Assembly (NCBI RefSeq): GCF_022201045.2
Contig: NC_068562.1
Coordinates: forward strand, 5,252,001 to 5,316,000
DNA: 64,000 bases
Source: Citrus sinensis
Taxonomy: Eukaryota > Streptophyta > Magnoliopsida > Sapindales > Rutaceae
Direction of reading: 5' to 3'
A program made the position numbers and the translations under genes. Within the stretch, counting starts at the first letter, position 1, and every line of letters begins with the position of its first letter. A model generated the notes under the pieces. The model searched no databases. It saw nothing but the letters and a program-made list of their open reading frames with translations, and was not told the DNA's origin. This document shows, piece by piece, positions 7,177-52,936 of this stretch.

Positions 7177-7580
7177 CTACCTATATTTTAGTGTTGGTAT
7201 ATAATTAGAATTTAACTACCGTTATTTTTAATTTATTAATTATCAATCACTTTAATAAAATATAAAACTTACTCAGAAGAAGATTATATCAAGAGAGAAT
7301 CATGACCCAATTAGAAGAGTATGTATCTTACATTTCATAAAGATTTTTGAACATCTTTCAAAATTGTGGGTTCATTTTAAGGTAAAAATTCTAACTTTTT
7401 GTGGATGAGTTTTCATGACTAATTTGCATGCATATATATCTTAATCAAATTGATACGGTGATCCATTTGTTTGGATGGTTAAGAAATCTAAGTTTCAACA
7501 CAAATAATCATTGGGCTACAAATCCAACGATAGACTGGTACTCTCAATTTATTCTGCTACCGGGGGATATGCCATCCATG
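7177..7580. other. Segment present in B/C flanks, absent from A flank
   Basis: Alignment of the A flank (around 1409) with the B flank shows about 404 extra bases here, bounded on both sides by TGTG. It could be an insertion in the B lineage or a deletion in A between short direct repeats. No terminal inverted repeat was seen. Confidence 0.55.
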
Positions 7581-8779
7581 TGTACATTATGAAATGTAAT
7601 ATTTTTTATCATATTTAGGAGGATGAACGTCTTATTATTTAAGATAATAATTGTTAATGCGTGCATTATTAATACTCCATCATCTGGTTATTCTAGAAAG
7701 CTCTTTGATAGGATTCTATTGGTATTTGAAATTTTATATACATCTTTCATTGCAGTAAAGATCTTTTTAACATGAATTGTGTGAATACCAAACTCTTGAC
7801 ACATCAAGCATGTGCAAAATTTGTAACAACAGTGCGCAGTACGAAAATTTTTTTACGGCGGTTATGTCTAAATGGTGAAAAATCTTTGTCAGATTTTAGA
7901 TAATCTTTAAATCACATTTATTGAAACTTACCATTAATAAAAGGGAAACAAGATAAAGAATAAAAACAATATATGAGCGGATCATGTGAGGTACTGAGGT
8001 CGGCGTCACTTTGTTTTGAGTGATGGTAAAATATATAAGTTAGGGAGACCCAAGAAATAAATGCAATTCAATCATCGTTCTACTCGAATTAAAAGAGAAT
8101 TTTCAAAGTTCGCACATTTTGATAATTTTTTTTTTCGTTTTTGCTTTTTGCTTTTGATATCGATAGAACTCGTTGTTTTGTTTTTTGTCTTTTATGCGAC
8201 GGAAGGCTTCTTCTCTCTCTCCTGTCAGCTTTTTTCTCTCTCTCTCTCTCCTCCCATCATATGCTTCACTCTCTCGTCCTTCTCTCATTTTTCTTGATAC
8301 TTAGCATTTTTTCAAAACTTTTGTTATGTGCACATGTCAAAGTTTCCACATTCAGATTGAATAACTTTGTCCACAAGAGCCAACTTGTCATCTAAACTAC
8401 AAAAATTAATTAATTAATTAACGACAAATGAAAGGCAGGTATACAGAGGAAAAGAGGTTGCCTCGAATTTGTGTAACCATCTCGTGGAACATCCCAGGAT
8501 GTTTGTAGGTGTGAACTAAAAAGAATAAATAAATAAATAAATAATAATTGAATGTAAGCAGCTGGGAAGATTAACTACAGTTTACAGGGAGAAAGGTACA
8601 TACCAAGTACTGGGAAGTTGGTCATTCATTCATGAGGCTTCAAGTGCTCAAAAGGTCGTGCGAGTTCATTAAGTACTTTCTCTTATTTTATTTTAAGAAG
8701 GACAAAAGTAACTAAACCATTTTGTTACTGTACGTGTTGATGAAATGGTCATAAACGTGGATATGTAAAATACGGACAG

Positions 8780-10869
8780 GGAAACGGGTGATGAGGATGT
8801 GAGGCTGAAGGTATTGTATTGTGGGATCTGCCATACTGATCTCCACAACATCAAGAATGAATGGGGCTTCTCTCTCTTCCCTATGGTTCCTGGGTATGTA
8901 CCCATGATCTATCTACCCTTCAATTTTTGTTTCTTTTGCATTTTGTATTGTTTCGGGTCAAACCCAGCTACGCATGAACAGGCTGTTGTTTCCGTCACGG
9001 CGCTCCCTAATTATTAACTACGGTACTTGCCTGTGTATGCAGAAAGAGATTAACCAAGGCCAAGGCTTTGGGATCTTACCGTTCCATATTTGATGTGATG
9101 AATAACTGGAATCTCCTGGTAAAAGTGACAAACATATATATTTACGGGTCATCATCGTTTAATAAGATTTTCTTACAACAAATTAAACAAAAATAGAGAC
9201 ACACAAATTTTAATATAATATAAAATAAAATATATTGGATGAAAATATGTATTTTTCTTATACATTATCTTCATAACTCTTGGTAGATTTATACTCTCTA
9301 TCTTATAAATAAAGGGTGGAAATAACAATTAACTCAATTAAAGCGTTGTTAGCATAGATATCTTTTTTTTTTTCCAATAAAATTAATTTATTTCCATTTG
9401 ACTCTGTACAATTTTTAAATATTCCAGTGTAGTGGCCAGTGGGGTGCCTTGGCATCATTAGAGTGTGGAGATCACACTAAAGACTTAACCCATCAAAATG
9501 GTACACCTGTGTAATTGCGGAATGGTCAATTATGAGATTTTACTTGAGGGATAGACGAGGTTGACAAATAAACGGAGACATGACTTGTAACTTGAATTTG
9601 CATTCAAATGAAGACTTGTAAATTTTCAAATTTCAAATTTCTTTGCTTGAAGAATTTTATGATTGAGAAACTTACTGACAAAAGAAAAGTTGGTGGAGTG
9701 GTGTAGTATATACGTTTCCAGAAGCTAGCCAGTTATATATTGTCAAAAACAGAATCAAATACCTTGTTTCCACTAAAGTAATTTATCCTAAACAATTTGT
9801 ATTTATTTGCAGGCATGAAATTGCAGGGGAAGTGACAGAAGTTGGCAGCAAAGTAAGAAAGGTTAAAGTGGGAGATAAAGTTGGAGTTGGATGCATGGTT
9901 GGTGCATGCCACAGCTGCGAGAGCTGTGCCAATGACCTTGAAAATTACTGTCCGAAAGTGATACCCACCTACACTTCCATTAACACTGACGGAACAATCA
10001 CATACGGAGGCTACTCTGATCAAATGGTTGCCAATGAGCGCTACATTGTTCGATTCCCTGATAGCATGCCCCTTGATGCTGCTGCTCCCCTGCTTTGCGC
10101 CGGGATTACCGTGTACAGTCCATTGAAATACTTTGAACTAGCAGAACATGGAAAGCATGTAGGCATCGTTGGCCTTGGTGGGCTTGGTCATGTCGCTGTC
10201 AAATTTGCCAAGGCTTTTGGGGCCAAAGTGACAGTAATTAGCACCTCTCCAAGCAAGAAGACTGAAGCTCTTGAACATCTTGGCGCTGATTCATTTTTGA
10301 ATAGCCGTGACCCTGACCAATTGCAGGTAATTTAATTAGATTCACGCATATATTGGAGAAAAATAAAAAATAAAATGCATTCCTTAATTTTAATATATAT
10401 TTTGTAATAACTTCATCAGGGTGCCATGGGCACATTGGATGGTATTATTGACACAGTGTCCGCTGTGCACCCCATTTTGCCATTTGTCGGTCTATTAAAG
10501 TCCCAGGGCAAGCTTGTTCTGGTTGGTGTTCCGAACAAGCCACTCGAGCTACCTGTGATTTCCTTAATTATGGGTAAGTTCTAACAAAATTCTTCGGAAA
10601 CTTGTGGTCTAAAACTTGTAATTAATATAAGTCGTTTGATAACATAAAATGACATAGCAGGGAGGAAGACGGTGTCAGGGAGCAGCATTGGGGGAATGAA
10701 AGAGACGCAAGAGATGATTGATTTTGCAGCAAAACACAATATAACAGCTGACATTGAGGTTATTTCGATGGATTATGTCAATACGGCAATGGAGCGACTT
10801 GCCAAGGCTGATGTTCGGTATCGATTTGTCATTGATATTGCAAACACCTTGGCCGCCACCAAACCTTGA
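8780..10869 (+). pseudogene. CAD/mannitol-dehydrogenase-like, copy C (lacks exon 1)
   Basis: Exons 2-5 of the dehydrogenase are at 8780-8893, 9813-10326, 10420-10573 and 10661-10869. They encode the same amino acids as copy B, with all zinc ligands and the GLGGLGH loop. The duplicated segment begins in intron 1, so the promoter, start codon and first 32 codons are missing. What precedes exon 2 is the 3' flank of copy B. No replacement first exon was found in 8300-8779. It is therefore probably a 5'-truncated pseudogene, unless transcription from copy B reads through and splices a foreign first exon onto it. The frames are undamaged, as expected for a very young duplicate. Confidence 0.8.
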
Positions 10870-13800
10870 AGAATCAGAATCAGAATCAGATTGGTGTCTT
10901 CAATTCACAACTTTGTTCCATGATCCACTTTGCTATATGTAATGCTCCCTCGATCATTACACTCTTTTAGCGCTTAAATTACTTTTAATTTCCAGATACA
11001 TCGACCCTAATCATGCCGTGATTGCCAAAAAACTATAAGGGTGCGTTTGGCACACTATATTATATTATGCTGTATTGCATTATTTTTATGTTAGTGTATT
11101 GTATTATGCTGTATTGTATTAGCACTGTATTATAACAATGTTGTACAATGTTTGGTGTTGTATTATATTGTATTAATTTTTAGTTATACTATGTTTGGTG
11201 TTGCACTGTACTATATTAATTTTTTGTGATTAATTTATATTATATATTTATAAAATAATATTTATTAGTACTTAAAAAAACTAAATATAGAGGTCTTAAA
11301 TTTTAGAAATTTAATTACAAAATGAATTGTGCTAATATTTTATATTATTATTTATGTTATTATTAATTTTAGATTAATATTATTGAAATTCATTCGTATT
11401 TAAATATTTATTATTTGTTATATTATATTATTTAAAAATATTAAATTTTATATATTAATATTACAATAATTAAATAGTGTAATATTATATTATATTTTAT
11501 ATACTTTTAAGTATTTATTATTAATCATATTAAATTATAAATTTATTAATAAATTATGATGTAAAAATAAAAAAATAATATTATATTATATTATAAATTA
11601 AAAAATATATATTTATCCATTTTTATTATTATTAAGTAAAACTAAAAGTGAAGGTTAAAGTTTAAAAAAAAAAAGACAAGCTAACGCGGGAGCTGCCGCA
11701 TTAGTGCGCCTCCCGATGCCCAATTCCAATGAGGTTCAACTACTCCCAAATATGTTATTGGTTTTAATTAATGTTGGGCCGACAATTAATCATATGCAAT
11801 ACCACACACCAAACACACCCTAAATGTTAATGAAATAAAATATTGTTCATATAAAATATTTAGCATATGTACCTTTCACCAATTGTCCAATCGAAAAGTT
11901 TGTTTTGTTCTAAATCACATATAGAGTTTTTCTCTCAAGCGCACTTTTCATTTTTTTTTCTCATACAAACACTATCAAGTCATACAATTTAATAAAATTA
12001 GTATAGATGATAGAAATCTATAAAATCATATTCGCAAAGGTATGTAGTGACAGCAGTGTCTAGGTTCCTCTGACCTTGAACAAAAATATATGATTGTCCT
12101 AAATGACTTATGAATTCATATCACAATTTTCAACACTGCATGTATGTTTTCCAACAGAAAATTTCGTAGGATTAGGGTTTAGTACTATGTTGAGTTTTTA
12201 TCGAGTATTGAATCAATAGTTAGAATTGTTTTAAATTTTAAATTCTTACAATTTCTCCTATTAATAACCATTGATTTAATATTTAGTAAAACTCAATTCA
12301 GCACGTAATCCTTATTCGACTTTGCAACCAAAGAACACAAACAAAACTTCATCGGTCAATGGAAGCATTTTCTTAGAACCTCACGGTTCACCCCCAATGT
12401 TGACGCACGATGGATGATTTTATCAAGATGAATATAGTTCAAGTTTTACCACCCCATCAAATCTATCATGAAATTTCATTTATTCTTTTTTGTTTTTGGT
12501 AGATCTTAATATGTACTGTGATTAAAGCAAAGAGAGAGAGAGAGAGAGAATAGTAAAATCCATATCTAAAATGGTATGTGGTATGTACATAGTAGTACAT
12601 GATCTAAAATGGTATGTATATGATATACATGATATACATGATATGATCTAAGCTCTGCTTGTGCTACCTATATTTTAGTGTTGGTATATAATTAGAATTT
12701 AACTACCGTTATTTTTAATTTATTAATTATCAATCACTTTAATAAAATATAAAACTTACTCAGAAGAAGATTATATCAAGAGAGAATCATGACCCAATTA
12801 GAAGAGTATGTATCTTACATTTCATAAAGATTTTTGAACATCTTTCAAAATTGTGGGTTCATTTTAAGGTAAAAATTCTAACTTTTTGTGGATGAGTTTT
12901 CATGACTAATTTGCATGCATATATATCTTAATCAAATTGATACGGTGATCCATTTGTTTGGATGGTTAAGAAATCTAAGTTTCAACACAAATAATCATTG
13001 GGCTACAAATCCAACGATAGACTGGTACTCTCAATTTATTCTGCTACCGGGGGATATGCCATCCATGTGTACATTATGAAATGTAATATTTTTTATCATA
13101 TTTAGGAGGATGAACGTCTTATTATTTAAGATAATAATTGTTAATGCGTGCATTATTAATACTCCATCATCTGGTTATTCTAGAAAGCTCTTTGATAGGA
13201 TTCTATTGGTATTTGAAATTTTATATACATCTTTCATTGCAGTAAAGATCTTTTTAACATGAATTGTGTGAATACCAAACTCTTGACACATCAAGCATGT
13301 GCAAAATTTGTAACAACAGTGCGCAGTACGAAAATTTTTTTACGGCGGTTATGTCTAAATGGTGAAAAATCTTTGTCAGATTTTAGATAATCTTTAAATC
13401 ACATTTATTGAAACTTACCATTAATAAAAGGGAAACAAGATAAAGAATAAAAACAATATATGAGCGGATCATGTGAGGTACTGAGGTCGGCGTCACTTTG
13501 TTTTGAGTGATGGTAAAATATATAAGTTAGGGAGACCCAAGAAATAAATGCAATTCAATCATCGTTCTACTCGAATTAAAAGAGAATTTTCAAAGTTCGC
13601 ACATTTTGATAATTTTTTTTTTCGTTTTTGCTTTTTGCTTTTGATATCGATAGAACTCGTTGTTTTGTTTTTTGTCTTTTATGCGACGGAAGGCTTCTTC
13701 TCTCTCTCCTGTCAGCTTTTTTCTCTCTCTCTCTCTCCTCCCATCATATGCTTCACTCTCTCGTCCTTCTCTCATTTTTCTTGATACTTAGCATTTTTTC

Positions 13801-15054
13801 AAAACTTTTGTTATGTGCACATGTCAAAGTTTCCACATTCAGATTGAATAACTTTGTCCACAAGAGCCAACTTGTCATCTAAACTACAAAAATTAATTAA
13901 TTAATTAACGACAAATGAAAGGCAGGTATACAGAGGAAAAGAGGTTGCCTCGAATTTGTGTAACCATCTCGTGGAACATCCCAGGATGTTTGTAGGTGTG
14001 AACTAAAAAGAATAAATAAATAAATAAATAATAATTGAATGTAAGCAGCTGGGAAGATTAACTACAGTTTACAGGGAGAAAGGTACATACCAAGTACTGG
14101 GGAGTTGGTCATTCATTCATGAGGCTTCAAGTGCTCAAAAGGTCGTGCGAGTTCATTACGTACTTTCTCTTATTTTATTTTATTTTTTTTATTAATTACT
14201 GACCTTTTCACACGATGGATGTTTTTAAGAGGTTCTCGCCTTTTGTCTTTGACTTTTTCTTTTTTAATGTTAAATCCATTAACTTAAAAAATTAAATAGT
14301 AACGAGAGTAAGAGTCCACTTTGATCAAACGCAAATAATAATAATAATAAAAAAAAATTAAGTAAATTTAATAAAAATATCCTAAATATAAAATTAATAA
14401 TAAGCTTGTCCAAGAGATTTGCGGAGTCAATGGGGGTGTACGTCAGTGTCATTTTTTTTTAAATTGAAAACCAAGAATATTGTGTTGCGGTAGGCTAGCA
14501 GCCGTGGGCCACGTGAATAGCCACTCCTGAAAGTTTTGAAGCCATAAAAAAAAGTAACAAATAACCGAGTAAGTCGTCCACATAAGTTGTGTTATTTGCC
14601 ACCAAATTACATCACGAAAGTCTTCTCCTTTCAGTTTTTTTTTTTTTTTTTTTGGTTATTGTAGCTTTTTAATTATTTTGAGGAGCAAGACTCATTATAT
14701 TCCACAATAAAAGTATATTATTACTATTTATCTTCAACAAATTGTCGCGTTAGTTGAAATTTATTTTTAACAAATATCGCCAAAAATTCCCGTAAAGGAA
14801 CAGTGACGGGTTGTTTTCATTCACACATGAACATTTGCACGTGACTAATACCTAACGCTTTACACGATCGAAGGTCATGGTGTTTCTAGAATCGTCGAAC
14901 AAAAGGGCAAAAAAGTGAAACTACAAAGGAAATCGAGAACCATTTTGAGGAAAATGGCTTTGGTCAATAAAGAACGGCTGGGTCGGTGAATTGAATTGGA
15001 AAATTGCTCACCGAGTACGTCACCCAAACGCAATGGGAAGATGCTGTTACTTGC
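10870..15054. other. 3' flank of copy C and upstream region of copy D
   Basis: Up to 14182 this repeats 5383-8695. From 14183 to 15054 the sequence is unique, AT-rich and gene-free. It contains a CACGTG hexamer (near 14511) and a TACGTCA motif (near 15016), plausible bZIP/bHLH sites in the copy D promoter, but not tested. Confidence 0.5.
11039..11820. mobile_element. PIF/Harbinger-like element, duplicated copy
   Basis: This is the same element as 5552-6333, carried along by the segmental duplication rather than inserted anew: it has the same position relative to copy C, the same flanks and the same TAA duplication. Confidence 0.85.
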
Positions 15055-24086: not shown

Positions 24087-24483
24087 TCGAGACTCCTCTC
24101 ACTTTTTCTTCTTCTTCTTCTAGTGAGATGTATCCCATATTCTCTCTCTTTCTCGTTAATTAGCTTTATTTATAAATTCCATTATAAATATATATATGTC
24201 CCAAACCTCTCTTTGATGGATATCACAAGACCCCATCAACATTTCCACCCCATGCATGAAACTATTCAATTGAGTATCTTTGCCTCTGTAAAAGGAAACT
24301 GATCATCAACACACAACACACATCCCACAGCCATACATCTATCTCATTTCTCCCCCCTTCTTTTTCTTTTTGGTTCAACTTTCAGTTTCAGGCACCACAT
24401 CTCTTTTTAATTAGTCCTAGGGAAAAAAAAAAAGAAAAATAGAAAAACATAATCTTTCAAAGAGTTATCTAATAGCCACCCCC

Positions 24484-25500
24484 ATGATGTCCTCTGAAAA
24501 TATTCTCACGACACAAGCTGTGATGACCAAAGAAGAAAACCAAAACCCAGCTGGCAACCGGAAAACAGCTTCAACAAGGCCACAAGAGCAAGCCCTCAAG
24601 TGTCCCAGATGCGACTCTCCCAACACTAAATTCTGCTACTACAACAACTACAGTCTCACGCAACCAAGGCACTTTTGCAAGACTTGCAGGAGGTACTGGA
24701 CTAAAGGAGGGGCTCTCCGCAACGTTCCCATTGGCGGCGGCTGTAGAAAGAACAAGAAGATCAAGTCATCTTCCAGACTCTCCGTTGACTCCAAAGACTC
24801 CGCTTCATCTTCTGAGATCGGCGGTTTCAAGTTCTTTCATGGCCTCTCTCCGGCCATGGATTTTCAGCTTGGTGGGTTATCATTTCCTCGGCTGAATCCC
24901 TCTTCGGCTGGTATCTGCAGCCAGTTCTCTTCATTTGGAGATGCTACGAGCCCTTCTTATTTCGGTCTTGATCCATCTGCTAGCTCTGCAAATCATCCTT
25001 TGACGGGCTTTAATTATCCACTTTCTTCTATTGTTGCTAATACCTTCGGTGGAGCAGTTCAAGAAATGGGTTCCTTAAATGTCAACAGTAGCCTTGCGTC
25101 TTCAATTGAGTCTTTGAGTTCTATAAATCAAGATTTGCACTGGAGACTGCAGCAGCAAAGACTTGCTATGCTCTTTGGTGGAGAGAATCAAAAAGAAACA
25201 ACCGTTGCTTCTGCTCAACTTGAGACTCAGACGCAGAAACCGCAACCCATTTTGTTTCAAAATCTGGAGATTTCATCAAAACCACAGGCTCCTGCAGTTG
25301 GGAATTCACGAAAAGAAGGTGCAAGTGGGGAAAGTACTGCAACTGAATGGTTCTTTGGGAATTCATATGCACCAGTGACTGCTGGCACTCCAACAACTAC
25401 AAGTAGCGGCGGCAACGGCGGCAATGATAACACAATTAACAACTGGAATAATGGTGCTCAAGGATGGAGTGATTTGCATCGATACAGTGGTTTGCCCTAG
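24484..25500 (+). CDS. Dof-type zinc finger transcription factor (338 aa)
   Basis: Plant-specific nuclear transcription factor that binds AAAG cores. The Dof domain occupies residues about 38-92, with zinc ligands C40, C43, C65 and C68 (C-x2-C-x21-C-x2-C), the [13 protein letters not shown] segment and the basic GGGCRKNKK end. The rest is low-complexity Ser/Asn/Gly-rich sequence, with a QQQR patch and a conserved-looking tail ending in [11 protein letters not shown], where a short activation or interaction motif often sits. There is no intron in the coding region. A second ATG immediately follows the first (MM); the first is used here. The gene stands alone between long spacers. I cannot assign it to a numbered Dof orthologue. 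Confidence 0.95.
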
Positions 25501-38435: not shown

Positions 38436-40116
38436 GTAACGTATTAATTCTCCTAAAACTCTATTTATCCCTTCCCTTGTTTTGTGATAGTAAACGCACC
38501 ACTCATCTCTACAATGCAATATTTTTGTTTATCCTGGTTGTTATTTTTGGAATATCATTTCTGTATTTCATGATTTTGTTTTTTGTTTTTCCTTCAAATC
38601 GTTGTTGTTTGTAATTTGATTCTGTCCAATTCTGCTGTCCTCTTTTTACTTAATTTGCTTGTTTCATGGTCGTATATAGATATCCAGACTTAAAATTAGG
38701 GCGTGCAAGTGCCTTTGCCTGTTTTCAATCCTATTGCTTTACCTTTTGGTTTCAATATCATTTCTGTATTTTTCGAGTTGCTAGATTTTGTTCTTCTTCG
38801 TTCACATAAGCACTAAAACACGTAAGCGTTGTAATAGTTTCTTTCTTTGTCCATTTGATTGTCTTATAATCAAGCTTAGAGGCTTCTGCATTTTACTTGC
38901 AAGTTCTATTTTGGTTTTAAGTTGATGAAAGGTTTATTTAGTTGTATTATTCTTTCGTTTCTATGCGATGCTTGTTGAATGGATTGTGAAATGTTCTTTT
39001 GCATTTGCATTCTTTATGAAAACATATTTTCACATATTCTGCTGCTCCCAAAGTTTCACATACAAAGGGAAAGTTTTCCTGATGTTTGATCCTAAAAAGG
39101 GGAACATGCTTGAAAAAGTAACATGAAAAATCGATGGATTATTTGGAACCATTGACCGTTTTTGAAAGCCATGATCGTGGAATGGATATAGATCTATGAA
39201 GTAGCTTTTAAAGAAACTTTGTTTTATACACGCGTGCATGCACACACAAACACACCGGGGGACAAGTCTGATGTATCAGGACAATTTGACCTTTGTTTCA
39301 TTAAGGGTCGTCGGTTAATTTGGTCTATGTATATGGTATCCTGGAGAGAAATGGACCAACAAGATGTAACTTTTGTACCAATCAATATGGGTTCTATAAG
39401 TGGTTTTTGCTGGAACGGCAACCATGGTCTAATCTCAGTCCACCAATTATGACTTTCAGAGGACCGTCAACTGTTTATGTCATTCAGAAGAAAGTCTTAG
39501 TTTTTGTGAGAATTGAGAGGTTCTGAGTCTATTTGAGATACTTCTCCCCTTATTTTGAGGTTATTTTTAATTATTGTGTGGGATAATAGTAATTCTAAGT
39601 GACCCTGCTGTTGTGCCACCTCGAAAGGCTAATTCTTCTGATGGATTGGGGCCTGTGAGTGCGATATACGTGGTTCCTAGTTTAAAGGCGACTTTGGTAT
39701 TCTACAGAAGAAGAAAAAATTGCCATCATATAAGAATTCAGAAAGGACACCATCCAAAAAAAAAGGGAGTTTACACTCACCTTTCAGTTGTTATGGTAGT
39801 GGACTAGTGGGGTGGGAGAATCTTTTCAGGTGAGAAGAGGCCTTCAAAGTTAAGCTTATAGTAAGAAAGTGATCCCTTGGAATCTGAAAACAAGAGCTAA
39901 CTAGTGGTAGGTATTATGAATTAGAAGATAGGGCTCTCACTCTCTTCCCCCTTTTTTTTGGAATTGGCTCTTACTCTTTTATTCTCTATGAAATTTTCAA
40001 AGGTACATTATACCTTAATTTTATTCCTTTAAGCTTTTATGTTTTTGTCTCTATACATTACTTGAATGATATCATATGTGTTTTCATTTAGGTGATTTTT
40101 TGTTCTTCTGGTACAG
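38436..40116 (+). other. Possible 5' leader intron of the FAR1-ALDH6 locus
   Basis: AAATAAG|GTAACG at 38435/38436 follows a pyrimidine-rich leader-like region. GGTACAG at 40110-40116 is a good acceptor 23 bases before the FAR1 start codon. This would make a 1.7-kb leader intron, a common arrangement in plants. Only transcript data can confirm it. Confidence 0.35.
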
Positions 40117-40139
40117 GAACACAAATTCAGATAGACCTT

Positions 40140-40652
40140 ATGGAGCAGAAAAAGATGATTCCTCCACCCCCTGGGACTTTTCAAGATCGTGAAGATCTTA
40201 TTAAACATGTTAGAGACTTTGGCACTAATCAAGGATATGTCGTAACCATTAAAAAGTCCAGAAAAGATAGAAGAGTCATTCTTGGCTGTGACAGAGGAGG
40301 TGTCTACCGTAATAGGCGTAAGATTGATGAAAATAAACGCAAAAGGAAAGCATGCTCCCGGCTTATAAATTGCCCTTTTGAAGCCATAGGTAAAAAGGAA
40401 GATGATGTATGGGTGCTGACAATAAAAAATGGGGAACACAACCATGAACCTTTCAAAGACATGTCAGAACATCCTTATAGTCGTCGTTTCTCTGAGGAAG
40501 AGGTAAAGCAAATCAAATTAATGACTGAAGCTGGTATAAAGCCACGTCAAGTGTTGAAGGCTCTTAAGCAAAGCAATCCTGAGCTGCAGTCAACACCAAG
40601 GCATTTGTACAACCTCAAAGCTAAAATTCGTCAGGGAAATTTATCAGGTTAG
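40140..40652 (+). CDS. Stand-alone FAR1-domain protein (170 aa) if the first intron is retained
   Basis: Reading through the donor at 40648 (TCAG|GTTAG) meets a TAG stop at 40650-40652, only one codon past the splice site. An unspliced message would thus encode a compact FAR1-domain protein. It has the zinc-ligand pattern of the WRKY-GCM1 fold and a C-terminal helical segment (SEEEVKQIKLMTEAGIKP) that in longer relatives precedes a MULE transposase domain, absent here. It is either an alternative product of the fusion locus or an independent gene just upstream of the ALDH6 gene. A DNA-binding role is inferred from the family. Confidence 0.5.
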   Translation: MEQKKMIPPPPGTFQDREDLIKHVRDFGTNQGYVVTIKKSRKDRRVILGCDRGGVYRNRRKIDENKRKRKACSRLINCPFEAIGKKEDDVWVLTIKNGEHNHEPFKDMSEHPYSRRFSEEEVKQIKLMTEAGIKPRQVLKALKQSNPELQSTPRHLYNLKAKIRQGNLSG

Positions 40653-43600
40653 ATCCCTACCAATGCTTTTGAAATGAAACAAATCATGCAGCGGCTAAGA
40701 TTGGTGGGTGGAAGGTTAACATAGGGCTCTAGGATTGCTTGATAATTAACAAGGTAAATGAGATATATATTACCGAGATCATTTTCTTGATATTACAGTA
40801 AGTGGGAGATAAGTCATTTCTTAGTAAGAGCTATTGCAGAGTTTGAATGCGCACATTGACCAACCTAGTTGGACTTCTTTGTGCTTGGTGTCAGATTAAT
40901 ATTCTTCTGGGTCTCTTCATTATCTTTCAATACTAAAAAATGCTCCAAAGATATTGTGAGTAACTACAGGATTGATGTGGATTTATACTAATCTCTGCTT
41001 GAAAAGAGTTTTAACTTATTAACAGTTATCAAGCAGTACTTTGGTCTTTGAATAATCGACTAGCATAAGGGTTGGATTTCAGTAAATTAGTACGGAACAG
41101 TTAAAATGTTCAGTGGTAGAAGCGTTTTTTTCTTGAAATCAAGAGTGTCAGCTTCAGTGCCTACAAAGTTTTTCATTATCAAATGACGTTGTCTTGCAGA
41201 GAAAAGTTTCAAGTCCTGGAGACCAAATAGATCCACTCCTGTAAACACAAGCGCTTCTCCCTCTGGAGTGTCACCAAATATAGACAACAATCGAGTAAGT
41301 GATTATGTGAAGAAGAAAAGTTGGTATATAAATTGTATTCTTTCTTGAAATTACTTTGCCTAGGAAAATGGGTTTTTTCTGTTTTGAATTTAGTTTTTAC
41401 TTCTCTTTTTATCCCTCAATTTCTTTCCGTGTAAATGTATATGTATGTGTATTTGTATTCTCTGTTTAAGAGTTTGAGATTCATACCTCATCTTAAATTT
41501 AAATATGGGTGAAGGTTTCAAATTTTATCGGGGGAAAATTTGTGGATTTGCGAGGATCTGCAACCATTGATGTAATAAATCCTGTAAGTGTAAAAATTTA
41601 AATAATGAATTTTACATTTTCCCTTAATTCTTGAAGGAGTTGTTCATACAGTATTTATTCACTACATAAACGAGACTTAATTTTTTGATCAGGCAACACA
41701 AGAAGTTGGTTCTCAAGTTCCTTTAACGACATATGAGGAATTTAAAGATGCAGTTGATGCAGCCAAACGAGCTTTTCCTGCCTGGAAAAACACTCCTGTC
41801 GCTACTCGTCAACGCATCATGTTCAAGCTCCAGGAGCTGATCCGAAGGGACATTGTAAGTGCAGTATTATCTCTTTTACTTTGCCTTTTTATTTTGAACT
41901 TCTAATTTTGATTTGCAGAAAGAAATAATTATTTCAGGACAAGCTTGCCATGAATATAACTGTAGAGCAGGGCACAACATTGAAGGCTGCTCAGAGAGAT
42001 GTGTTATTTGGTTTAGGTATTCTGCATACAGCTCTTATTATATTTTAGAGGATAGTTTTTGTCTGATTGTCCGCGTTATCTAGAGTGATTTCCTCGCTTC
42101 CTCATTGTGCTTTCAGAGGTAGTTGAACAGGCTTGTGCAGTGGCAACTCTCCAAATTGGGGAGTTTGTTCCTAATGCTTTGTGTGGCCTTGATACTTACT
42201 GTTTTAGAGAACCGCTTGGTGTTTGTGCCGGAATATGCCCCTTCAACTTCCCAGACATGACTCCCTTGTGGGTATGTCTGTTGATTCCTCGATTCTTTTC
42301 TTTGGTTTTAAGTTCTTTTTTAATCTAGATGTTTAAATCAAGTTTCTGTTTTGTTTCAAGTCCTGAACCTGTTATTGTTTCTCTTTGAAATGAAATTTGA
42401 GCCATGTCTTGCTATGTTCTGTTGTATGGTTGAGAAGGTGTTAATTTTCTTTTCATGGTACTTAAAAAATGGAAGACAAGACTCTTGATGTAATAATGCT
42501 TCTATTGTTTCTACAGATGTTCTCAATTGCAGTTACATGTGGCAATACATTTATTCTTAAGCCATCTGAAAAAAATCCAGGTACTTCCTTTAGCTTTGTG
42601 GTAATAAATTTGGTTTGATGCCTTTGTAAACCAAATGAAACCGTTGGGAGATATTGACGTTGAACCCTATAACTGGAACTTCTGTTGTATGATGTGAAAT
42701 TGCCAGTATGATTCTAGTGCAAGCAATAATTGCAGACTGAAGTTTATACAAAATTAGTGCTTTGTTGAGGATGTTTTATCTTGTTAAAAGTTTGGGTTGT
42801 AATTCAACTGGACTTAAATCAACAGTGTACCACTTGGCTTATTTGACTCTTCTTTGAACCAGAATTTTCAAAGCTTCCGGATGTCCTTAGTCCGGGAGAA
42901 TTTGCAAATTGGAGTCTCATTTTTTAGTTATAATTTTAGGTGTCATATAATTTTTTTTAGAAGGTGGAGGGGTAGGCAAAACCTAAATAATTTTTATCTC
43001 CCACGCCCTCAGGATTTGAACTTTGGCGGTCAGCTGAATAAAACTGCTTGAAAACTACTCGGCCAAGCCTTTGGGGGCATCAAATATTTAGTTAATGACC
43101 GTTTGAAGTATTGTTAAAGGAATTTCATCAAGTCGCATTACTTGGCAGTGCTAAAATTGTTCTCATTTCGTTGTTATGTTTTGTATTCAGACCAATGGTT
43201 GCAAGGTTACATAAGAACGGAAAATTTAGTTTAGTTCGTTTTGCATCTTTTGGTAATAATTACCTGCGAATTTTGCATGGTTACCGGATGCATTTAACGT
43301 TGTCTTTCTTGTCAATTAGTTATCCATAAGGGACATTTGAGTTACATTGATGCGGTTAATATTGTTATTACCTTTTCTTTTTTCTTCAGGAACTTCAATG
43401 ATTCTTGCAGCATTAGCAATGGAAGCTGGTTTGCCCGATGGTGTCTTAAATATTGTTCATGGCACCAATGTATAATTTACTTTCTCAAAACCCTTCACTT
43501 TTTTGTCACCCTTCACTTTTCTGTCATTCACATGATTGTAACAGATGTTATTGAGGATCAATGGTTTTGTTAATCTAAGGTTTACCAGTAATCTGTGGTG

Positions 43601-46600
43601 TGTTATCAGAGAAGAGGTGGCCTTTTCTTAGTGCAGAGTCCTTGCACCTAAGTGAAGTGACAATGAGACCAGCTGCTATCCGGATGGTGGTGCACACCTA
43701 TAGGATTAAAAATTGACTAGATAATTCATAAACATTCTGTCCTTATTGGAAGGAGTGTGATGAGGTTTGATTTTGATATGTGGTTAGTGTTTTTGGGAGA
43801 AAGAATTAGAATTAACTAGGTTTGAATGGGAAATAAGAATTGGGGCGTCTCGTATATTTACATTCTGAAACATTCTGAAATCCCAAGCATATGTATATGA
43901 TACATTCAAGGGGTTTCTTGCATATATCTGTGAATCAAATGTCTCTTTCTTCCTTGCATTTGACCTCATGTTGAAAACTTCAAGATTACATGGACCACGA
44001 GTTGACGATGTGGGATCATTGAAATTTGCATTTTTGATGTTAAGAAGACTGCTGATTTAATCTGGAAATGGAAAAAAGTATTTAGTTTGTGGTTGAAATC
44101 AATTTTTTCTTGCAATTAACCTCCCTTTGAGGTCAAGAAATTTACGATGTCGTTATGTTTATCCTTTGATTTTATTGTATGCAACTATAGCTTAAGGATT
44201 TTGAAACAGCCAATTCATTGGAGTTAGGTATCATTCACAGCTCGAAAGCAGTTTCCTAATACATAAAAAAATGCATACCTTGGAATGTGATAAATAAAGA
44301 TTTCCAGCATGGGGTCATTAATTTATTGCTGAGAAATTCTTGTTTGGACATGTATTTGTGCAGGATGTCATAAATCATATTTGCGATGATGAGGACATAA
44401 AAGCTATATCATTTGTTGCTTCAAGCACTGTAAGTTGTCTGGTTCCTTATGATATGATATGCAATACATGAAGCTGCAACTTAAATTAAGAGACATGCAG
44501 AACCAAGTTTATATTTAATCTTACTGTGCTATTTGATGAAAATGTCTTCTTATAATGGTTTATTTTTATATTTGAAGCGAACTTAATGCATTTCCCATTA
44601 AAGTAAAGAATTTCATAAATTGTGGTATTGCCCTTTGCTTTATGGAAATGCACAGAAACTTTATTAATCATCTTTCAGCTTGAAATATGTTGTATGCTTG
44701 AAACCCAAAATACTTATACCGAGGGAATGTCATGGTTTTGTACAAGGATGCTCAATTCCAGCAAAGCTAAGCTCAAATCCTAAAATTGAGTGTATTTGAA
44801 ATCCAAACAAGATAAGAGACAAAACAGGTCTAACAGATTATGATAGAAGCAATGCTCTATGGATTCCATCTTGATCCAGTCCTAAATTATTATTTCATAT
44901 GTTTAATATTGGATTTTAAACTTTGTGTTTGACATTGATATCAATCTTGGTTGTTCTTTTTATATCTTTTTCTCATTTTCCTCCACATCTTTTTAAAAAG
45001 TTTCCCATAAACTTTTAGGCTAGCGTGCAGATGTATGCTAGGGCAGCTGCTAGAGGGAAACGTGTTCAGGTGAATACCCTCTATTTGTTTTGTTATCACT
45101 CTTTTTCCTTTCCTCTTTTTCTCTGAAAAAGGGTTTCTGTTACTCGACTAGGTTGATATTTTGAAGTCAGCACGAATTTCTTAGTTATCTGATTCTTTTG
45201 TTGACTTCATAGTCCAATAGAGGAGGCAAAAATTATGCAATAATCATGCCTGATGCAAGCATAGATGCCACTTTGAATGCTCTGGTCTCTGCTGGCTTTG
45301 GTGCTGCAGGAGAGCGGTGCACAGCTCTCAGCACAGCTGTTTTTGTTGGGAGTTCAGTGCAATGGTATATTGATTGTTTTACTTGAACTTATTTGCTATC
45401 ACAGTCATTTTTCCTTGAACCAAATCCACTATGCCCCTTATGATTCAAGTTCGAAGGCTCATATCTCCTTTAGATGTAATTTATTATTTACTTGAGATCT
45501 TCATTGCAAACAGCTTAAATTTGTTATGCTTCAACTTAGGCCTCTTGGAATTATCAATTTATCATGAGCTTGGATATACACATTCTCTTAGAAACAATTT
45601 CTGCGAGTAAATATGCTTTAATAATAAGGGATAAAATAGTAGTTATTTTAAAGAAAATCAGACAACAATTGTTAGCTTGGACGGTTTTTGAGGTCAAGGA
45701 TATTCTCTACAAACCACTTTATATCTTGTAATTAAATATTTCGTCTTTTATGTATTTGTAGAGTTTCTAAGACTCTCTGCTTTCCTTTTCTACTTAAGAC
45801 TGTCAAAGCCCTTTAGAAATTAAACACTCAGAAGTAGAAATTAACACTCAGAAATTTTACCTAAAAGAGCTCCAGTGCAGACTCAACACTAGCTATTTAT
45901 ATGTCCTTTTCACCTTTTGATCATTTAGGTTGCATTAACTTGATTCATCTAATTAATTAACACTGGAATCTTATTTTGGCAAATGTTGAGTCATGCTGTA
46001 TTTATATGATAGTTCGTGCATTTGTTCTGATGAGCAAGTCGTTATTCTTTTTGGAAAATAGATGATTGGTGTCAGTAAGATATATCTCAAATCATAGGGG
46101 TTCTGCTTTTTCCAGGGAAGATGAACTTGTGGAGCTTGCCAAGGCACTTAAAGTGAACGTGGGAACAGATGCTAGTGCTGATGTTGGGCCAGTGGTTAGC
46201 GTAGAGGTGGAAACATACCTCCAAAATTTTAGAATAATTTTGATCTGAGTGATAAAATAGGACTGATGTTGACAGTTGATTTCTGTTTTTTGCATCATAT
46301 GTTTTTCTATAAGTGGAAAACATTCCTTTACATCTAGATTGCCTTTTCATTTCGTGCATTCTGGATGTTTTTTGATGATTTTTTTTGTCCATCATTATAT
46401 TTCCTGAAGTTTTTTCTAATTCACAGGTAAAGGATCAGATAAGCAGATTAATTCAGAATGCTGTTGACAATGGGGCTAGCCTTCTCCTTGACGGGAGGAA
46501 TATTGTGGTATTCATTTATTCAATTTACTAGAAGAGAATATCATATTTTATTGCTTTAACTATTGCTTGACGCTTATTATTTTCCTTTTCTTAGTTCTGC

Positions 46601-49322
46601 TTGCTATGCATCCTTTAGAATTAAGTGGGCTTTAGAGGATTTTCCAGAGAAGTGTTGATAATTATTGATAATTTCTTGTGTTCAATTTCCATATACAGCA
46701 AACCTTCTCTAAGTGATATTGGGTTTGCAGGTTCCAGGATATGAGAATGGAAATTTTGTTGGTCCAACGATCTTACGTGATGTTACATCCAACATGGAGT
46801 GTTACAAGGTACTTCTTTTCGTTCTACTATTTCTTTTTGCATTTTCTGAATTAATGGACTTGGATAATTATGATTCTCAGTGGAAAAAGAGTTGAACCAA
46901 AGACCCTCCCATATTCTTGACCACACTCTTATTTTGTGTTGAGCAGGAAGAAATTTTTGGACCAGTTTTACTTAATATGCAGGTAACAAACATTTGATTA
47001 CTGTTTTTTGTTCCTTTATAAAAAATTTTATGGCTTTGATTGGAGACAGATTGACAGACTTCCTCTTGTAATCTTTTTTGACTGTGATCAGGCTGACAGT
47101 CTAGAAGAGGCCATAAAGATGGTAAACAGAAACAGGTACTTATTCGCTAATTGTCACCTTTAATTTTAAGTTGGCTTTATGATGCATATCTTTTTTGCAT
47201 TTTAAATTCATTCTGGGGAATAATTAGTGCTGGTTGTCGCTTTTCCTAACCATGCAAACTTTTCTTAATTTTTCCCTTGTAAGTTTTGATGATAAAGTTA
47301 GTTCTTGAAGACTAGAACTCTTTTGAATTTCCTTGGGTAACAAGTTGAAGTGCACGTTCAGTGTTCTCTTAATAACTATACTTCCCTTTTTTCATTCTAT
47401 TTACTTGTTTTGCAGGTTCGTGAATGGGGCATCGATTTTTACATCATCTGGCTTGGCTGCAAGGAAATTCCAGAATGAAATTGAGGCAAGACTGGTAAGC
47501 CGCATTTAGAAACTTAGTCATGAGTTTTGCAAAAAGCATGTTACCAAACATCTCTTTTGTTGACCTCTAGATTCCCTTGTCTCCTAGTTGATTAATGCAC
47601 AAATTTATTTGACATCCTTTATAAATATGAGTGCCAATCTGTGGGCTAGAGATGTTGCAAAAGTTTATGCCTAAGCACTCTCTGCATTGCTCATATGTGC
47701 TATTTGAAGAAGAGGTACCGGGTTGACCATAGAGGAGAATGGAGATGTTGACATTGAGCATGCTCAAGTTTTGCATGTTTCACTAATACTTGCCTGTGGG
47801 GTGTTCCTCAGTTTGCTCGTCATAGAAGGATGGAATGGTAGGAGAGTAGGTGATCATCCCAAGAACATAGAGACTTGCGATACCCTTACTCTTGTTTGAG
47901 CAAACTCTATATAATCATGAATAACGGTGGTTTCTGACATGAACTTTGTATGATTTAGGTTGGGATCAATGTTCCAGTTCCATCGTCTTTTTCCTCAATT
48001 AATGAATCTGGTGAATTCAATTTTTGTGGTATAGTTCCCTTGTCCCCATCTCATGTATCTCTTTCTCTCCTTATCTTTTTGCTCACAAACTTCATTAGGC
48101 TTGGTCAAGGTTTATTGGAGGGTATCTTTAGACCTTCTATTGTTTTATCACTTTCGCCTTTTGCCTATTTGCAGGAAAATCAGGTGTGCAGTTCTACACC
48201 CAGATCAAAACTGTGGCGCAACAATGGAATGATTTACCGAAACTCGGGATGCCATTAACTATGCCGCTGTCATCTGAGACAGATATGAGAAGCCAAGGAG
48301 TTTCTTCAGTTTTTCCTCAATCATCTGAGAGAGAGTCACCTAGCCCAAGAGTGTCTCCAGCCATGTCCTCAGCATCAGAGAGAGATTCACCAAGCCATGA
48401 AGTACTGCTGTCCATTCCTTTCACATCGGAGAGAGAATTGTCTGATCCAGGAGTATCATCCCTATCACCTACAGCTAATGTAGACTTACCAGTCCAGGGA
48501 GTATCGTTGTTCACGTCTCCAATCATCATGGATTTGTCTAACCGTGAGACATCACTAGCTATGCCTTCGGCAACTGTTGGGGATTTGTCAAGCCAAGTAC
48601 TCTCTCTACCTATGCCACAAACATCTGAAAGGTTGTATATGCTCCAAACATCTAATTGGAAATCTCCACCCATAACATCTCGAAGGACGGATGCTATTCA
48701 TCCACCCTCTGAGAGGATTTATATGCCATGTACATCTCAGAGGAATGACAACACAGCTCGAACATCTCAGAGGACCGACACTGCAATGTCGTTGCCTTGT
48801 GACAATGCATATGTACCTATGTCTTGTAAGACTGATAGTATTGGTCAGTTATCACACAGGAATGATGGTATGGCTCAAGCTTCTCATCAGGCTGATGCAA
48901 CCTTGAATCAAACTTCAGACAGGACGTACATGTTTTCTACTTCTCTCTTGAATGACACTGTGAGTCAAACATTTCATAGAACCAACACCACATTGTTTCC
49001 AACTTCAGAGAAGATATACATTCCTTGTGCATCTCCTGGAAAGGACCATATAGGCTCACCAGCTCTAAGGACTGATATTCATTTACATTCAAATATTGCA
49101 TCGGCTTCTCAACCGGCTGATGTTTTACCTCCAACTTCTGAGAGAATGTATATGTCTCCACTTGTTCAGAGAAATGCTGGAATGCCACCAACATCTGAGA
49201 GGTTATACATGCCTGCAACATCATCATCTCAGAGGATATATACCCAAAACCCAATACTTCAATTGGATGATTTTTCCAGCCAAGGGTCATCTATTACTTT
49301 GCCTACATCTCAGAGAATATAG
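40140..49322 (+). CDS. FAR1 DNA-binding domain fused to divergent ALDH6, repeat-rich tail (1,035 aa)
   Basis: Nineteen exons close in frame (3,108 nt): 40140-40647, 41200-41294, 41515-41583, 41693-41854, 41938-42016, 42117-42271, 42517-42580, 43390-43469, 44364-44429, 45019-45069, 45213-45364, 46116-46206, 46427-46507, 46731-46808, 46947-46982, 47092-47135, 47416-47494, 47959-48028, 48175-49322. Residues 1-169 are a FAR1/WRKY-GCM1-type zinc domain (GCDRGG, INCPFEA, EHNHE). Residues 202-~660 are a CoA-dependent methylmalonate-semialdehyde dehydrogenase (valine/thymine catabolism), with catalytic C479 (AAGERC) and oxyanion N348 (CPFNFP). Residues ~665-1035 are Ser/Thr/Pro-rich with repeated TSER-x-YMP. 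Odd points: the usual F-x-GS-x-x-x-G cofactor loop reads FVASSTAS (421-428), EQGKT reads EQGTT, and the usual mitochondrial presequence is missing. Alternative: two genes, with a separate ALDH6 start near 40674-40707. The ALDH6 exons are certain; the junction is not. Confidence 0.7.
42951..43075 (-). mobile_element. tRNA-derived SINE remnant in an ALDH6 intron
   Basis: On the minus strand the sequence shows an A-box-like TTGGCCGAGTAG (complement of 43056-43067) and, about 35 bases on, a B-box-like GTTCAAATCC (complement of 43012-43021). An unrelated body and a short A-rich end (near 42951-42959) follow. This is the layout of plant tRNA-related SINEs. No clear target duplication was found, so the ends are approximate. 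Confidence 0.55.
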
Positions 49323-49874: not shown

Positions 49875-52800
49875 ATGAACTGGTCTTCTCGGGAGAGGAA
49901 GAGAAGAAGAATGCAGTACACTTACACAGCCGGGGCACCAGCAACTTATCCTCCACTGCCCAAAATCGTAACTGTGAAGTCGAAGCTATCATCTGCTAAA
50001 ACCCAAATTCCAATTCGATACAGTGCTCATGAATACAGTAATAATAATGATAATATAAATATAAATGATGATGAGGATGATGGTAGGAAGTTCGCTTTAC
50101 CTTATCACGTCAAAAACATAACGAGCACTTCAAATCCATTTGTGAAGCACTGCCTCAAGCTCCGGCAGAGCTCCTCTTATCGCCACTCTCATGGCTCTGC
50201 TTTGGTTGTGGGTACCACTCCTATTAGGTAACCTGAACTATTCCCGCCTTTTTTTTTTTTTGTGTGATGACATTCGAGTTTGTTTTAGTTAATTTTGCAA
50301 AACATATTTCTGCTGTTCTTAGTTATCATAAATTTTACATTGGTGTTGGGTTCATTTTCATGTTAGATCAAATAAAAAGTTAGTACTCAATAATTTGCAG
50401 TCCTTCGTACTAAAACTACTTCAGGAAATGAATGAATGCTTTCTCTTTTTGGTCTGAGTTGTGGATTTGTAGTCTATAGTTTGCTATTATTAGTATCAAT
50501 GTTCTCCAACTTTTGGAAGAACCAACAAATGATTGACGGGCATTTTTATCAAATACATGCTTTAGTAGTTTCTGTTGTCTATGTTTATTTGTCAATTCTC
50601 ATAGCCTGTTTCTTGCTACCTTTTCTTGATGGATTGAATTCATGAATACTTGAACTATACTGTATTTATTTTTTATTTTTTTGCAGTGCTGTGAATTATA
50701 TTGTGTTGCCACATTTCATAATGCAAACCTCTGTCCCAAAAAATGTTTTTATTCGGAGGTCAACACACTTATTAACAAATGGAGAAAGCAATTTACAAAT
50801 TTACAATATGTTGTGTTACTACAGCTATAAATGGGGGCAAAGAGGGGAATGCATCTACGGGTGGGGCTGTGGGGTGTTAGGAGCATTTCACAGATTAGCT
50901 ATTGAAGGGGATAACATCTGGTATTGGAAGTTATTGATAGGTTTTCTGTTAAGGTTCTGAGTGAAAATTGCTGAGATGTATGTTTTTGGGACCTTCAGTA
51001 AAGAGAGTTGAAATAGGCATCTACATTACGACAGACCAATGATGTGCTTCTCATTGTAGGTTATGCTTTTATATAATATAACTGAAGGGGACTATAAGAG
51101 AGAAATTAAAAGGAAGTGATGATTTTGAGCAGAAGCAACAGTATCTTCCGGGGAAATATACAACTTTGATGCATTATTGTTCCACAGGAGACTATAGTAC
51201 TTCCCATTATATGTTGAGTGAAATCCTTAATGAATTTTATTCGCAGGGAAATATACAACTTTAATAGGTCCTTGCAAGAGAGAACTGTCAGAATGGATTG
51301 TTTACTGTTACTTGATAAGGTGGAAGTTCCTGAAGGACTAGACAATATTTCTACTCATACTGTGCGTGTTAGCTCTGTGGTGATGAAAAAACTTTCTGGA
51401 GTACAATCATCTGAATCCATTGAAGCAATTGCCCTAATGAAAATTCCAACTAGTGTTTTTAGTATAGATGTCAATCAAAAAGAGGCAGATTGCCGAAGTT
51501 GGTTCCCATCTATACACCGAATTCTAGTCCTTGATGGAATTCAGGTAAATTTCACTTACCTAGAAATTTTTTATTTTGCACTCCTGTCAAATTTTGATCT
51601 TTAATTCTAATCTCGCATTATTGTGATGAAGGTGGCGCCATAAAGCCTCATTGCCTTAAGAATGTTAGGAAACTGATGATTTTGCATGTTGGTCTAATCA
51701 TTGGCAACAAGAACTAACCAAATACCTACTCTGTGATAGTTATTGAACATACACATAGAGGAGAATCCTAATGGAAATTCAAATTGAAGATATTCTTATG
51801 TAGCTATATGCACTAGGTCAAGCTTACTTCTTTTGACCTTGTGGTGCAACAATAGTCTGAACTTGTTGCCATCATTTTTTTTCCATGATTATTTGTTGGC
51901 TCTGCTTGTTGCAACATAATATGTTTGAACTTATTGCCATCATGTTTGTTCTATGATTATTTGTTGGCTCTGCTTGTCGCAACATAATATGAGAATGTAT
52001 TTGAAGGCTTATGAAGGTTCTCATCTGATGCTTGATTTAACAATTATAAAATTTGCATGGCATTTAGTTCTACAGCATTCTTTAATTTAAAATTTGCAGG
52101 CATTTAATACCTGGAACATTCAGGGCACATGCATCACTAATGTGTTAGAGTTGTTCCCTGCAGGACCCCGGTAACCTCGGCACATTACTCAGAACAGCTA
52201 TGGCCTTTAAATGGGTAACATGGCAAACCTAATATCTTTCTACCTTTGGTTTTTCCTTTTTAATTATCTTTTTATCTTGTTGATTATGTGTTTATTTGTA
52301 TGTGTTAAGCACGGTCACTTCTAGATACTCGTCAATCAGTCATGCATGGCCGAAATATATTCAGTAACCCAAAATCCAAAAAAAAAAAAAAAACAATACC
52401 AATCCATGCTTGACCCAACAATAGTATAAATGATGCATACATCAAATTCCCCCATGATTCCATCATTCATATTTTCTAACATTACAGCATATCTTATGGA
52501 TGGTTATAATGATTCGAGGGTCAAAATGCAACAGGGAGGTGTTTTCCTGCTTCCTGGCTGTTGTGATCCATTCAATGAGAAAGCTCTTCGGGCTAGCCGT
52601 GGGGCCTGCTTTCAGCTCCCCATAGTTTCTGGCAGTTGGTATCATCTTGAAGTGCTTAAAGATGAATTTCAGATGAAGTTACTAGCTGGACATGCAGGTG
52701 GTAATGAAGAGCCGAGACCAGTGTTACAGTTGTCTCAAGAGCTTGTGGATTCTTTCGCCGGTGTTCCGTTGTGCTTGGTTATGGGTAGTGAAGGGCGTGG

Positions 52801-52936
52801 CCTTTCAGAGGAATCACAACGGGTATGTGAACTTGTGACTATTCCGATGCAAGGAGAATTTGAGTCCCTTAATGTTTCTGTTGCGGGTGGAATTTTCTTG
52901 TACATGCTTCAGCCAAAGACTCAGAAATTTATATAA
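49875..52936 (+). CDS. SpoU (TrmH-type) tRNA/rRNA 2'-O-methyltransferase (367 aa)
   Basis: S-adenosylmethionine-dependent ribose methyltransferase of the SPOUT class. Exons 49875-50227, 51247-51544, 52164-52214 and 52535-52936 join to 1,104 nt. The three SpoU motifs are present: motif 1 DPGNLGTLLRTA (218-229), motif 2 LVMGSEGRGLS (315-325) and motif 3 IPMQGEFESLNVSVAGG (337-353), which form the trefoil-knot cofactor site and the dimer interface. The N-terminal ~115 residues form an RNA-binding-like substrate domain (NPFVKHCLKLRQS) typical of RlmB/TrmH relatives. The first residues are basic (RERKRRR), which could be a nuclear signal or part of an organelle presequence. A second ATG at 49911 is an alternative start. 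The target nucleotide cannot be predicted. Confidence 0.9.
51855..51991. repeat. 68-bp tandem duplication in a SpoU intron
   Basis: Two adjacent copies share GATTATTTGTTGGCTCTGCT and GCAACATAATATG, with a few substitutions (51855-51922 and 51923-51991). Confidence 0.85.

Follow-up and report, generated by a model that had tools for sequence, protein, structure and literature searches.

The 64,000-nucleotide stretch of the Citrus sinensis genome analyzed here (contig NC_068562.1, positions 5,252,001 to 5,316,000 of the forward strand; hereafter the window) contains a gene, at 40140..49322 of the plus strand, in which an exon encoding a FAR1-type DNA-binding module is spliced in frame onto the gene for an aldehyde dehydrogenase of the ALDH6 (methylmalonate-semialdehyde dehydrogenase, MMSDH) family. 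Rebuilding this gene from the window sequence gives 19 exons in one frame, with position 40647 in phase 1 joined to 41200, GT-AG at every internal border, a coding sequence of 3,108 nt including the stop, and a protein of 1,035 residues over a genomic span of 9,183 bp, confirming the in-frame junction that the first-pass annotation had proposed. The fusion is old and exists as two paralogous lineages, one tail-less and of about 710 residues (the short form) and one with a tail and of about 1,035 residues (the long form). We consider it probable that this core-eudicot fusion is a nuclear DNA-binding protein in which the ALDH6 fold serves as an oligomerization scaffold and/or a ligand sensor. 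The NCBI model of the gene (LOC102618946 isoform X1, 'uncharacterized protein', 1,041 residues) has six added residues at the start of exon 12. NCBI/UniRef holds proteins of 1,035 residues, derived from other Citrus assemblies (P0003, P0004), that are 99% identical to the window protein, so the reading frame of the gene is more than chance.

The origin of the fusion can be read within this genome. Searching it with the FAR1 part revealed one further close exon (C8:8735299, 69% identity), the remaining matches being much weaker (29-34% identity at E <= 1e-8). The region C8:8735260-8756495 holds a tail-less FAR1-ALDH6 gene of 718 residues in tandem with a canonical mitochondrial ALDH6 of 535 residues, which lies 1.8 kb downstream in the same orientation (C8:8746739-8756495). 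The two fusions and the canonical gene have the same exon number and phases, and their exons 4-17 are equal in length. Coding exon 1 of the canonical gene is 31 nt long, encodes MLTRFASIQR and ends in phase 1, while its exon 2 is a second presequence exon (VRNLKAVRPQIFAKFSTDAK). Both fusions have a phase-1 FAR1 exon in place of canonical exon 1, followed by a diverged copy of exon 2. The 31-nt presequence exon has thus been swapped for a FAR1 exon of the same phase, an exon replacement that is readable exon by exon because the intact parent stands in tandem with one of the fusions. The earlier suggestion that a captured exon replaced the targeting peptide is upheld by this comparison, which also shows that the second presequence exon survives in diverged form. 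The mitochondrial presequence of ALDH6 is not found in the fusion, the FAR1 exon occupying the place of presequence exon 1, and the first 35 residues contain five Lys plus Arg and five Asp plus Glu, as against eight and one in canonical ALDH6. Across the ALDH part, the window fusion is 72.6% identical to canonical Citrus ALDH6. In the C8 fusion, as in the window gene, an AG acceptor lies slightly upstream of the start codon.

Two further questions on the paralogues were addressed. The homologous C8 exon had suggested that exon 2 might be a piece of the donor FAR1 gene, and this was rejected because the tandem canonical gene has it as its second presequence exon. A comparison of 104 kb around one locus with 158 kb around the other did not show C7/C8 synteny as proof of a whole-genome duplication, with one weak pair (29.5% identity over 227 residues) found beyond the ALDH6 and FAR1 exons.

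Three protein searches listed 120 matches each, out of 607, 344 and 184, respectively, and 231 proteins were fetched from the first two. In all 22 entries labeled 'lgn' among the matches listed, FAR1 and ALDH share a single frame (404-1,084 residues); their longest contigs measure 1,493-4,551 nt, and the FAR1/ALDH junction is recognizable in 21 of the 22. Three of these entries (P0002, P0006, P0007) are 99-100% identical to the window protein, contain the exact 40647/41200 junction (KAKIRQGNLS-EKSFKSW), and have a 1,030-residue frame on longest contigs of 3,282-4,551 nt. Since contigs of at most 4,551 nt hold both parts in one frame, compared to 9,183 bp for the genomic gene, we infer that they are assembled spliced transcripts. 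It is therefore barely credible that a short FAR1 gene and a neighboring ALDH6 gene were falsely joined by prediction. A retained intron 1 would give a stop one codon past the FAR1 exon, and models that merge neighbors do exist (eight two-copy proteins, and Cannabis P0108 with a SpoU methylase), but such a mis-annotated merger was rejected in view of the 'lgn' entries and of the in-phase fusion at two loci and across several orders; the ALDH part also has no start codon directly upstream of exon 2. That the locus works through two products, with retention of intron 1 yielding a 170-residue FAR1-only protein and a second promoter yielding a FAR1-less and possibly organellar ALDH6, is quite improbable. 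It would fit the in-frame TAG at 40650-40652, the FAR1-less models with ALDH and tail (6 of the 231 fetched proteins) and the predicted Citrus splice variants P0001 and P0012. However, the FAR1-less models may be incomplete predictions, and inspection of intron 1 by eye, which was not a systematic search, revealed no presequence-like start able to splice onto exon 2 in the right phase. One candidate for a hidden presequence start, an ATG near 41105 that shares the frame of exon 2, was rejected, as a TGA intervenes and no phase-matching donor was seen in the same inspection.

At the domain level, the window protein matches Pfam Aldedh (405.9 bits) and AFT (21.7 bits, cut-off 21.6), whereas the FAR1 exon alone scores 25.9 bits with AFT and 23.7 bits with FAR1. 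All 10 members of alignment A1 match Pfam FAR1 at E <= 1 (best 1.2e-6), PF03101 is listed in the precomputed annotation of some orthologues (P0097, P0101, P0103), and the module tested positive for a WRKY-GCM1-type fold. The single-sequence AlphaFold model of the exon is poor, with a pLDDT (predicted local distance difference test) of 59.4. With Aldedh and AFT as the only Pfam matches at E <= 0.001, MULE transposase and SWIM domains were not found in the window protein, which is thus not a full FRS protein and FRF-like at most.

Conservation was analyzed on rows of both forms, initially 100 long and 127 short, then 99 and 116 whose alignment covers 85% or more of the ALDH query, and finally 98 and 102 without two-copy and canonical-like models; totals count isoforms and near-copies. 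P0040, P0105 and P0106, which have no FAR1 and were first sorted as short form, are out of the final set. The zinc ligands of the FAR1 module (C, C, H, H) are intact in 100 of 100 long-form and 124 of 124 FAR1-bearing short-form rows (224 of 224), although row sorting required a filled FAR1 stretch and the count is silent on copies that lost it. Mean pairwise identities, computed on the long- and short-form rows of the first alignment, are 86.7% for FAR1, 76.5% for ALDH and 43.0% for the tail among 63 long-form representatives. The identity of FAR1 exceeds that of ALDH in 1,948 of 1,953 long-form pairs and 1,529 of 1,653 short-form pairs.

Human and canonical Citrus ALDH6 are identical at all active-site positions checked, with residue roles and numbering that we take to be those of ALDHs in general; ALDH6/MMSDH has an Asn where other ALDHs have the general-base Glu. 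The catalytic Cys (C302) is present in 93 of 100 short-form rows and in 76 of 95 long-form rows, being lost in the other 19, and among 93%-identity representatives it is lost in 17 of 66 long and 6 of 54 short forms. The Asn at the general-base position is intact in 78/96 long and 98/102 short rows, and the adenosine-binding Lys of KPSE (K192) in 97/98 and 101/102. The oxyanion Asn of PFNFP is kept in 90/97 long and 26/100 short rows (the latter otherwise having Asp in 58, Glu in 15 and His in 1), the Arg before Cys in 77/94 and 26/102 (Lys in 76 short rows), and the Phe of EEIFGP in 80/95 and 50/99. The glycines G245 and G250 of VGSN..G are found in 69/96 and 68/95 long rows and in 98/101 and 78/99 short rows. 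The short C8 fusion itself has Asp for the Asn of PFNFP and Lys for the Arg before Cys. Among other cases, the Cys is replaced by Gly in Castanea, Alnus, Carya, Ricinus and Dillenia, by Ser in Daucus, Apium, Heracleum, Diospyros, Cephalotus, Fragaria and Mercurialis, by Arg in Xanthoceras, by Tyr in Pterospermum and by Phe in Mucuna; in the short form, Arg takes its place in Gossypium, Hibiscus and Humulus. On a quick tree of 126 rows, the Cys losses account for 14 changes or more; 42 of the 123 inner branches of this tree have weak support, and its long-form clade includes two short-form rows. Root-to-tip distances average 0.367 for the long and 0.316 for the short form, compared to 0.055 for the canonical enzyme, a value from one plant sequence that is indicative only. 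At 290 sites common to human and Citrus ALDH6, the residue is kept on average by 81.9% (long) and 84.8% (short) of representatives, a comparison that predates the final row cleaning and still includes the three rows without FAR1. The label of CoA-linked dehydrogenase given by the first-pass annotation may not fit everywhere, given the repeated loss of the catalytic Cys, which Citrus retains. A separate case is P0114 (Sesamum alatum, 707 residues), in which the FAR1 exon precedes a seemingly fully canonical ALDH6 through the C-terminal GVSLAMPTSQK; either the gene model is mixed, or the fusion has remained an enzyme in this lineage.

In a copy of the mitochondrial ALDH6 gene, replacement of the first presequence exon by the FAR1-module exon removed the presequence start, and we propose that mitochondrial import would have been lost with it. 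With this start gone and the zinc DNA-binding module invariant, the protein is most likely nuclear and DNA binding is most likely its conserved job. Nuclear entry would agree with published predictors which, in the available parts of the surveys, place the 713- and 958-residue poplar proteins and the 1,043-residue melon protein in the nucleus and their short siblings in mitochondria. Since catalytic residues are lost in many lineages, the ALDH6 fold would act as an oligomerization scaffold and/or a sensor of cofactor or of acyl or semialdehyde ligands, and not mainly as an enzyme of catabolism. A Ka/Ks (ratio of nonsynonymous to synonymous substitution rates) of 0.116 between two fusion-sized poplar genes, from the available part of that survey, is consistent with constraint. 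Several observations weigh against this proposal. The FAR1 (PF03101) score of the window exon is under the gathering cut-off of 28.1 bits, and Foldseek gave no match at E <= 0.001. Citrus retains the active-site Cys, Arg, both Asn and Glu, and with the Cys present in most long-form rows an enzyme role may be retained. The cofactor glycine motif is partly eroded in the long form (VASSTAS in Citrus), which weakens a pure NAD-sensor reading. In melon, CmALDH6B1 is described in the available part of the survey as lowly expressed and without organ specificity; its expression is reported to increase after salt in reverse transcription quantitative PCR.

More tentatively, and with less than even confidence, the protein may be a metabolite-gated transcription factor that arose independently of BZR1-BAM, with FAR1 binding DNA and a catalysis-free ALDH6 fold reading NAD(H), CoA or semialdehyde. 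If so, the state of valine, propionate and beta-alanine breakdown, the pathway of the canonical mitochondrial enzyme, would be signaled directly to nuclear genes. An enzyme tethered to DNA, its ALDH6 part active in the nucleus and making acetyl- or propionyl-CoA or lowering semialdehydes beside target genes, seems unlikely. It would agree with retention of the Cys and of K192 in Citrus and most long rows, and with the NCBIfam MMSDH model TIGR01722 (cut-off 448.5), for which P0003, taken as a stand-in for the window protein at 99% identity, scores 592.8 bits and the C8 fusion P0126 561.9 bits. However, this score is no guide to activity, as the Cys-less Alnus P0020 reaches 673.1 bits; moreover, the Cys is lost in many lineages while the zinc ligands stay intact, and the oxyanion Asn is substituted in 74 of 100 short-form rows. 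We likewise doubt that the fusion is an FRF-like passive competitor, whose FAR1 module would occupy FAR1/FHY3 sites while the ALDH6 part only multimerizes or stabilizes it. The lack of detected MULE and SWIM domains recalls the FRFs, proposed competitors for FBS promoters in the available part of PMC13306707, and FAR1 is under stronger constraint than ALDH. Yet the ALDH frame is open in many orders, and residue retention at the 290 sites seems beyond the need of an inert scaffold. In the scaffold-and/or-sensor reading that we favor, a transposase-type DNA-binding exon in place of an organelle-targeting exon would have converted the gene of a mitochondrial enzyme into that of a probable nuclear regulator, old and conserved; the invariant zinc ligands together with the repeated Cys loss make the idea of an enzyme fold as regulator directly testable.

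The repeat domain noticed in the first pass is present, and the tail both ends in and partly repeats the C-terminal peptide of the enzyme. The similarity of the tail end (SSITLPTSQRI in Citrus) to canonical SGVSLAMPTSQK beats all 2,000 shuffles in seven of eight proteins and is equaled by 1 of 2,000 in the eighth. Units resembling QGVSLxxPPTSE are enriched within the tail in six of the eight (0-1 of 2,000 shuffles) and weakly in the other two (28 and 32 of 2,000). With its canonical-like end and internal units, the tail seems to have expanded within the exon, with the C-terminal peptide of the enzyme itself taking part.

A protein search for the combined architecture, which the first-pass annotation had recommended, found full-length orthologues in many core eudicots of several orders among the matches listed, and the fusion was seen there only in core eudicots. 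Those recognized include Vitis rotundifolia, Liquidambar (Saxifragales), Malania (Santalales) and Dillenia (Dilleniales); the cactus match P0105 is the one without FAR1 mentioned above. Annotation of the orthologues is widespread, under the name MMSDH or 'uncharacterized'. In a FAR1 tree of 60 chosen rows, the long-form exons form one clade (100/99), the short-form exons another (99/94), and the two group together (98/95), with a third clade (100/99) as their sister. The history is explained most simply by a single fusion before the long and short forms diverged. The third FAR1 type occurs in 18 of 120 short proteins listed (P0303, P0304, P0306-P0318, P0320, P0327, P0348) and is absent from the 231 proteins of the fusion searches; the search that gave it admitted only short proteins, and many matches look like single-exon frames. 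In Acer P0327 and Corchorus P0348, a short non-ALDH stretch follows the exon border, and no copy of this type stood out in Citrus in the FAR1-part genome search. The simplest reading, short of proof, is that the third clade is unfused. As it is found only in short proteins, the exon may have come from a FAR1 gene that was by then short and stand-alone, and not from a transposase.

Features of the FAR1-ALDH6 gene (window coordinates)
Feature	Position	Strand	Basis or remark
End of 5' untranslated region (UTR)	40117..40139	+	inferred from sequence; behind a probable UTR intron, acceptor AG at 40115-40116
Exon 1, FAR1 exon (residues 1-169, 508 nt, ends in phase 1)	40140..40647	+	69% identical exon in C8 paralogue
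WRKY-GCM1/AFT-type zinc DNA-binding subdomain (residues 9-102)	40164..40445	+	
Three-helix, helix-turn-helix-like subdomain (residues 117-169)	40488..40646	+	
Intron 1	40648..41199	+	splice junction found in P0002, P0006, P0007
Exon 2, diverged second presequence exon of ALDH6 (EKSFKSWRPNRS...)	41200..41294	+	aligned in phase with its counterparts in the canonical gene (exon 2, VRNLKAVRPQIFAKFSTDAK...) and in the C8 fusion
Exons 3-18, ALDH6 (MMSDH) domain, 16 exons	41515..48028	+	exons 4-17 equal in length to both C8 genes
Catalytic cysteine codon (GERC), retained in Citrus	45318..45320	+	alignment
Exon 19, last part of ALDH domain, repeat tail and stop	48175..49322	+	gene rebuild
Ser/Thr/Pro-rich repeat tail (residues 672-1035, 364 residues)	48228..49319	+	final SSITLPTSQRI matches canonical C-terminal end SGVSLAMPTSQK

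Elsewhere in the window, a SpoU rRNA methylase exon (52430-52936) lies about 3 kb downstream of the fusion gene on the same strand. In the Cannabis model P0108, an ALDH6 with long tail is merged to a SpoU methylase, and the two observations together suggest a conserved gene order. Two head-to-tail copies of about 5.46 kb (3232-8695 and 8719-14182) are 99.89% identical and each contain an alcohol dehydrogenase exon with identical translation (4192-4848, 9679-10335); this tandem duplication is either very recent or an artefact of the assembly. A Dof zinc-finger transcription factor is encoded at 24421-25500. In the Citrus genome, at least 150 FAR1-domain places exceed the Pfam cut-off (150 of 150 scored of 341 candidates), several of them clustered locally and with short frames (C2:22.54 Mb, C3:37.4 Mb) and others with long frames.

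Genes of this kind are already in public annotation and in ALDH surveys; the FAR1 fusion itself was not found described in the literature searched. None of the titles and abstracts listed by searches that paired FAR1 with ALDH6B, ALDH6, MMSDH or aldehyde dehydrogenase describes it, subscription papers and preprints being mostly outside the coverage. The grape, poplar and melon ALDH papers do not contain the word 'FAR1' in their main text, nor do the three FAR1/transposon papers searched contain 'dehydrogenase'. The available parts of these ALDH surveys treat the long ALDH6B proteins as ALDH6 enzymes, and VvALDH6B7 (1,031 residues), PtALDH6B7 (958), PtALDH6B5 (713) and CmALDH6B1 (1,043) are likely orthologues or siblings of the window gene, judged by length, by tandem arrangement in the case of PtALDH6B5 and, for poplar and melon, by predicted nuclear location. 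Tandem ALDH6 pairs are reported there for grape (6B3/6B5) and for poplar (6B3 of 542 residues and 6B5 of 713 residues), and the sections available report one ALDH6 gene in foxtail millet (581 residues) and one in tomato. In crops, the gene is currently filed as a mitochondrial dehydrogenase, and ALDH surveys discuss its expression among aldehyde-detoxifying enzymes.

Compared to known systems, the fusion shares with canonical MMSDH ALDH6B2 homology from exon 2 onward, whereas the canonical protein has its presequence exon instead of FAR1, is tail-less, keeps all checked catalytic residues and sits on a far shorter branch. FRF1-4, truncated relatives of FAR1/FHY3, likewise have a FAR1-type module without MULE and SWIM, but no enzyme domain is described for them in the available part of PMC13306707. 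The closest parallel in design is BZR1-BAM7/BAM8, for which the accessible sections of PMC6394054 describe a plant DNA-binding domain on a metabolic-enzyme fold with poorly conserved catalytic residues and retained fusion paralogues. The components differ, a BZR1-type domain with beta-amylase as against a FAR1/WRKY-GCM1-type module with ALDH6, and so does the observed range: the same sections trace BZR1-BAMs back to early land plants, while FAR1-ALDH6 was seen only in core eudicots among the matches listed. Those sections also give the beta-amylase of BAM7/8 as inactive and the proteins as nuclear, from earlier studies, whereas for FAR1-ALDH6 a nuclear location is a prediction. The FAR1-ALDH6 proteins may work like BZR1-BAMs, whose architecture they share; their catalytic residues have decayed in many lineages, but Citrus retains them.

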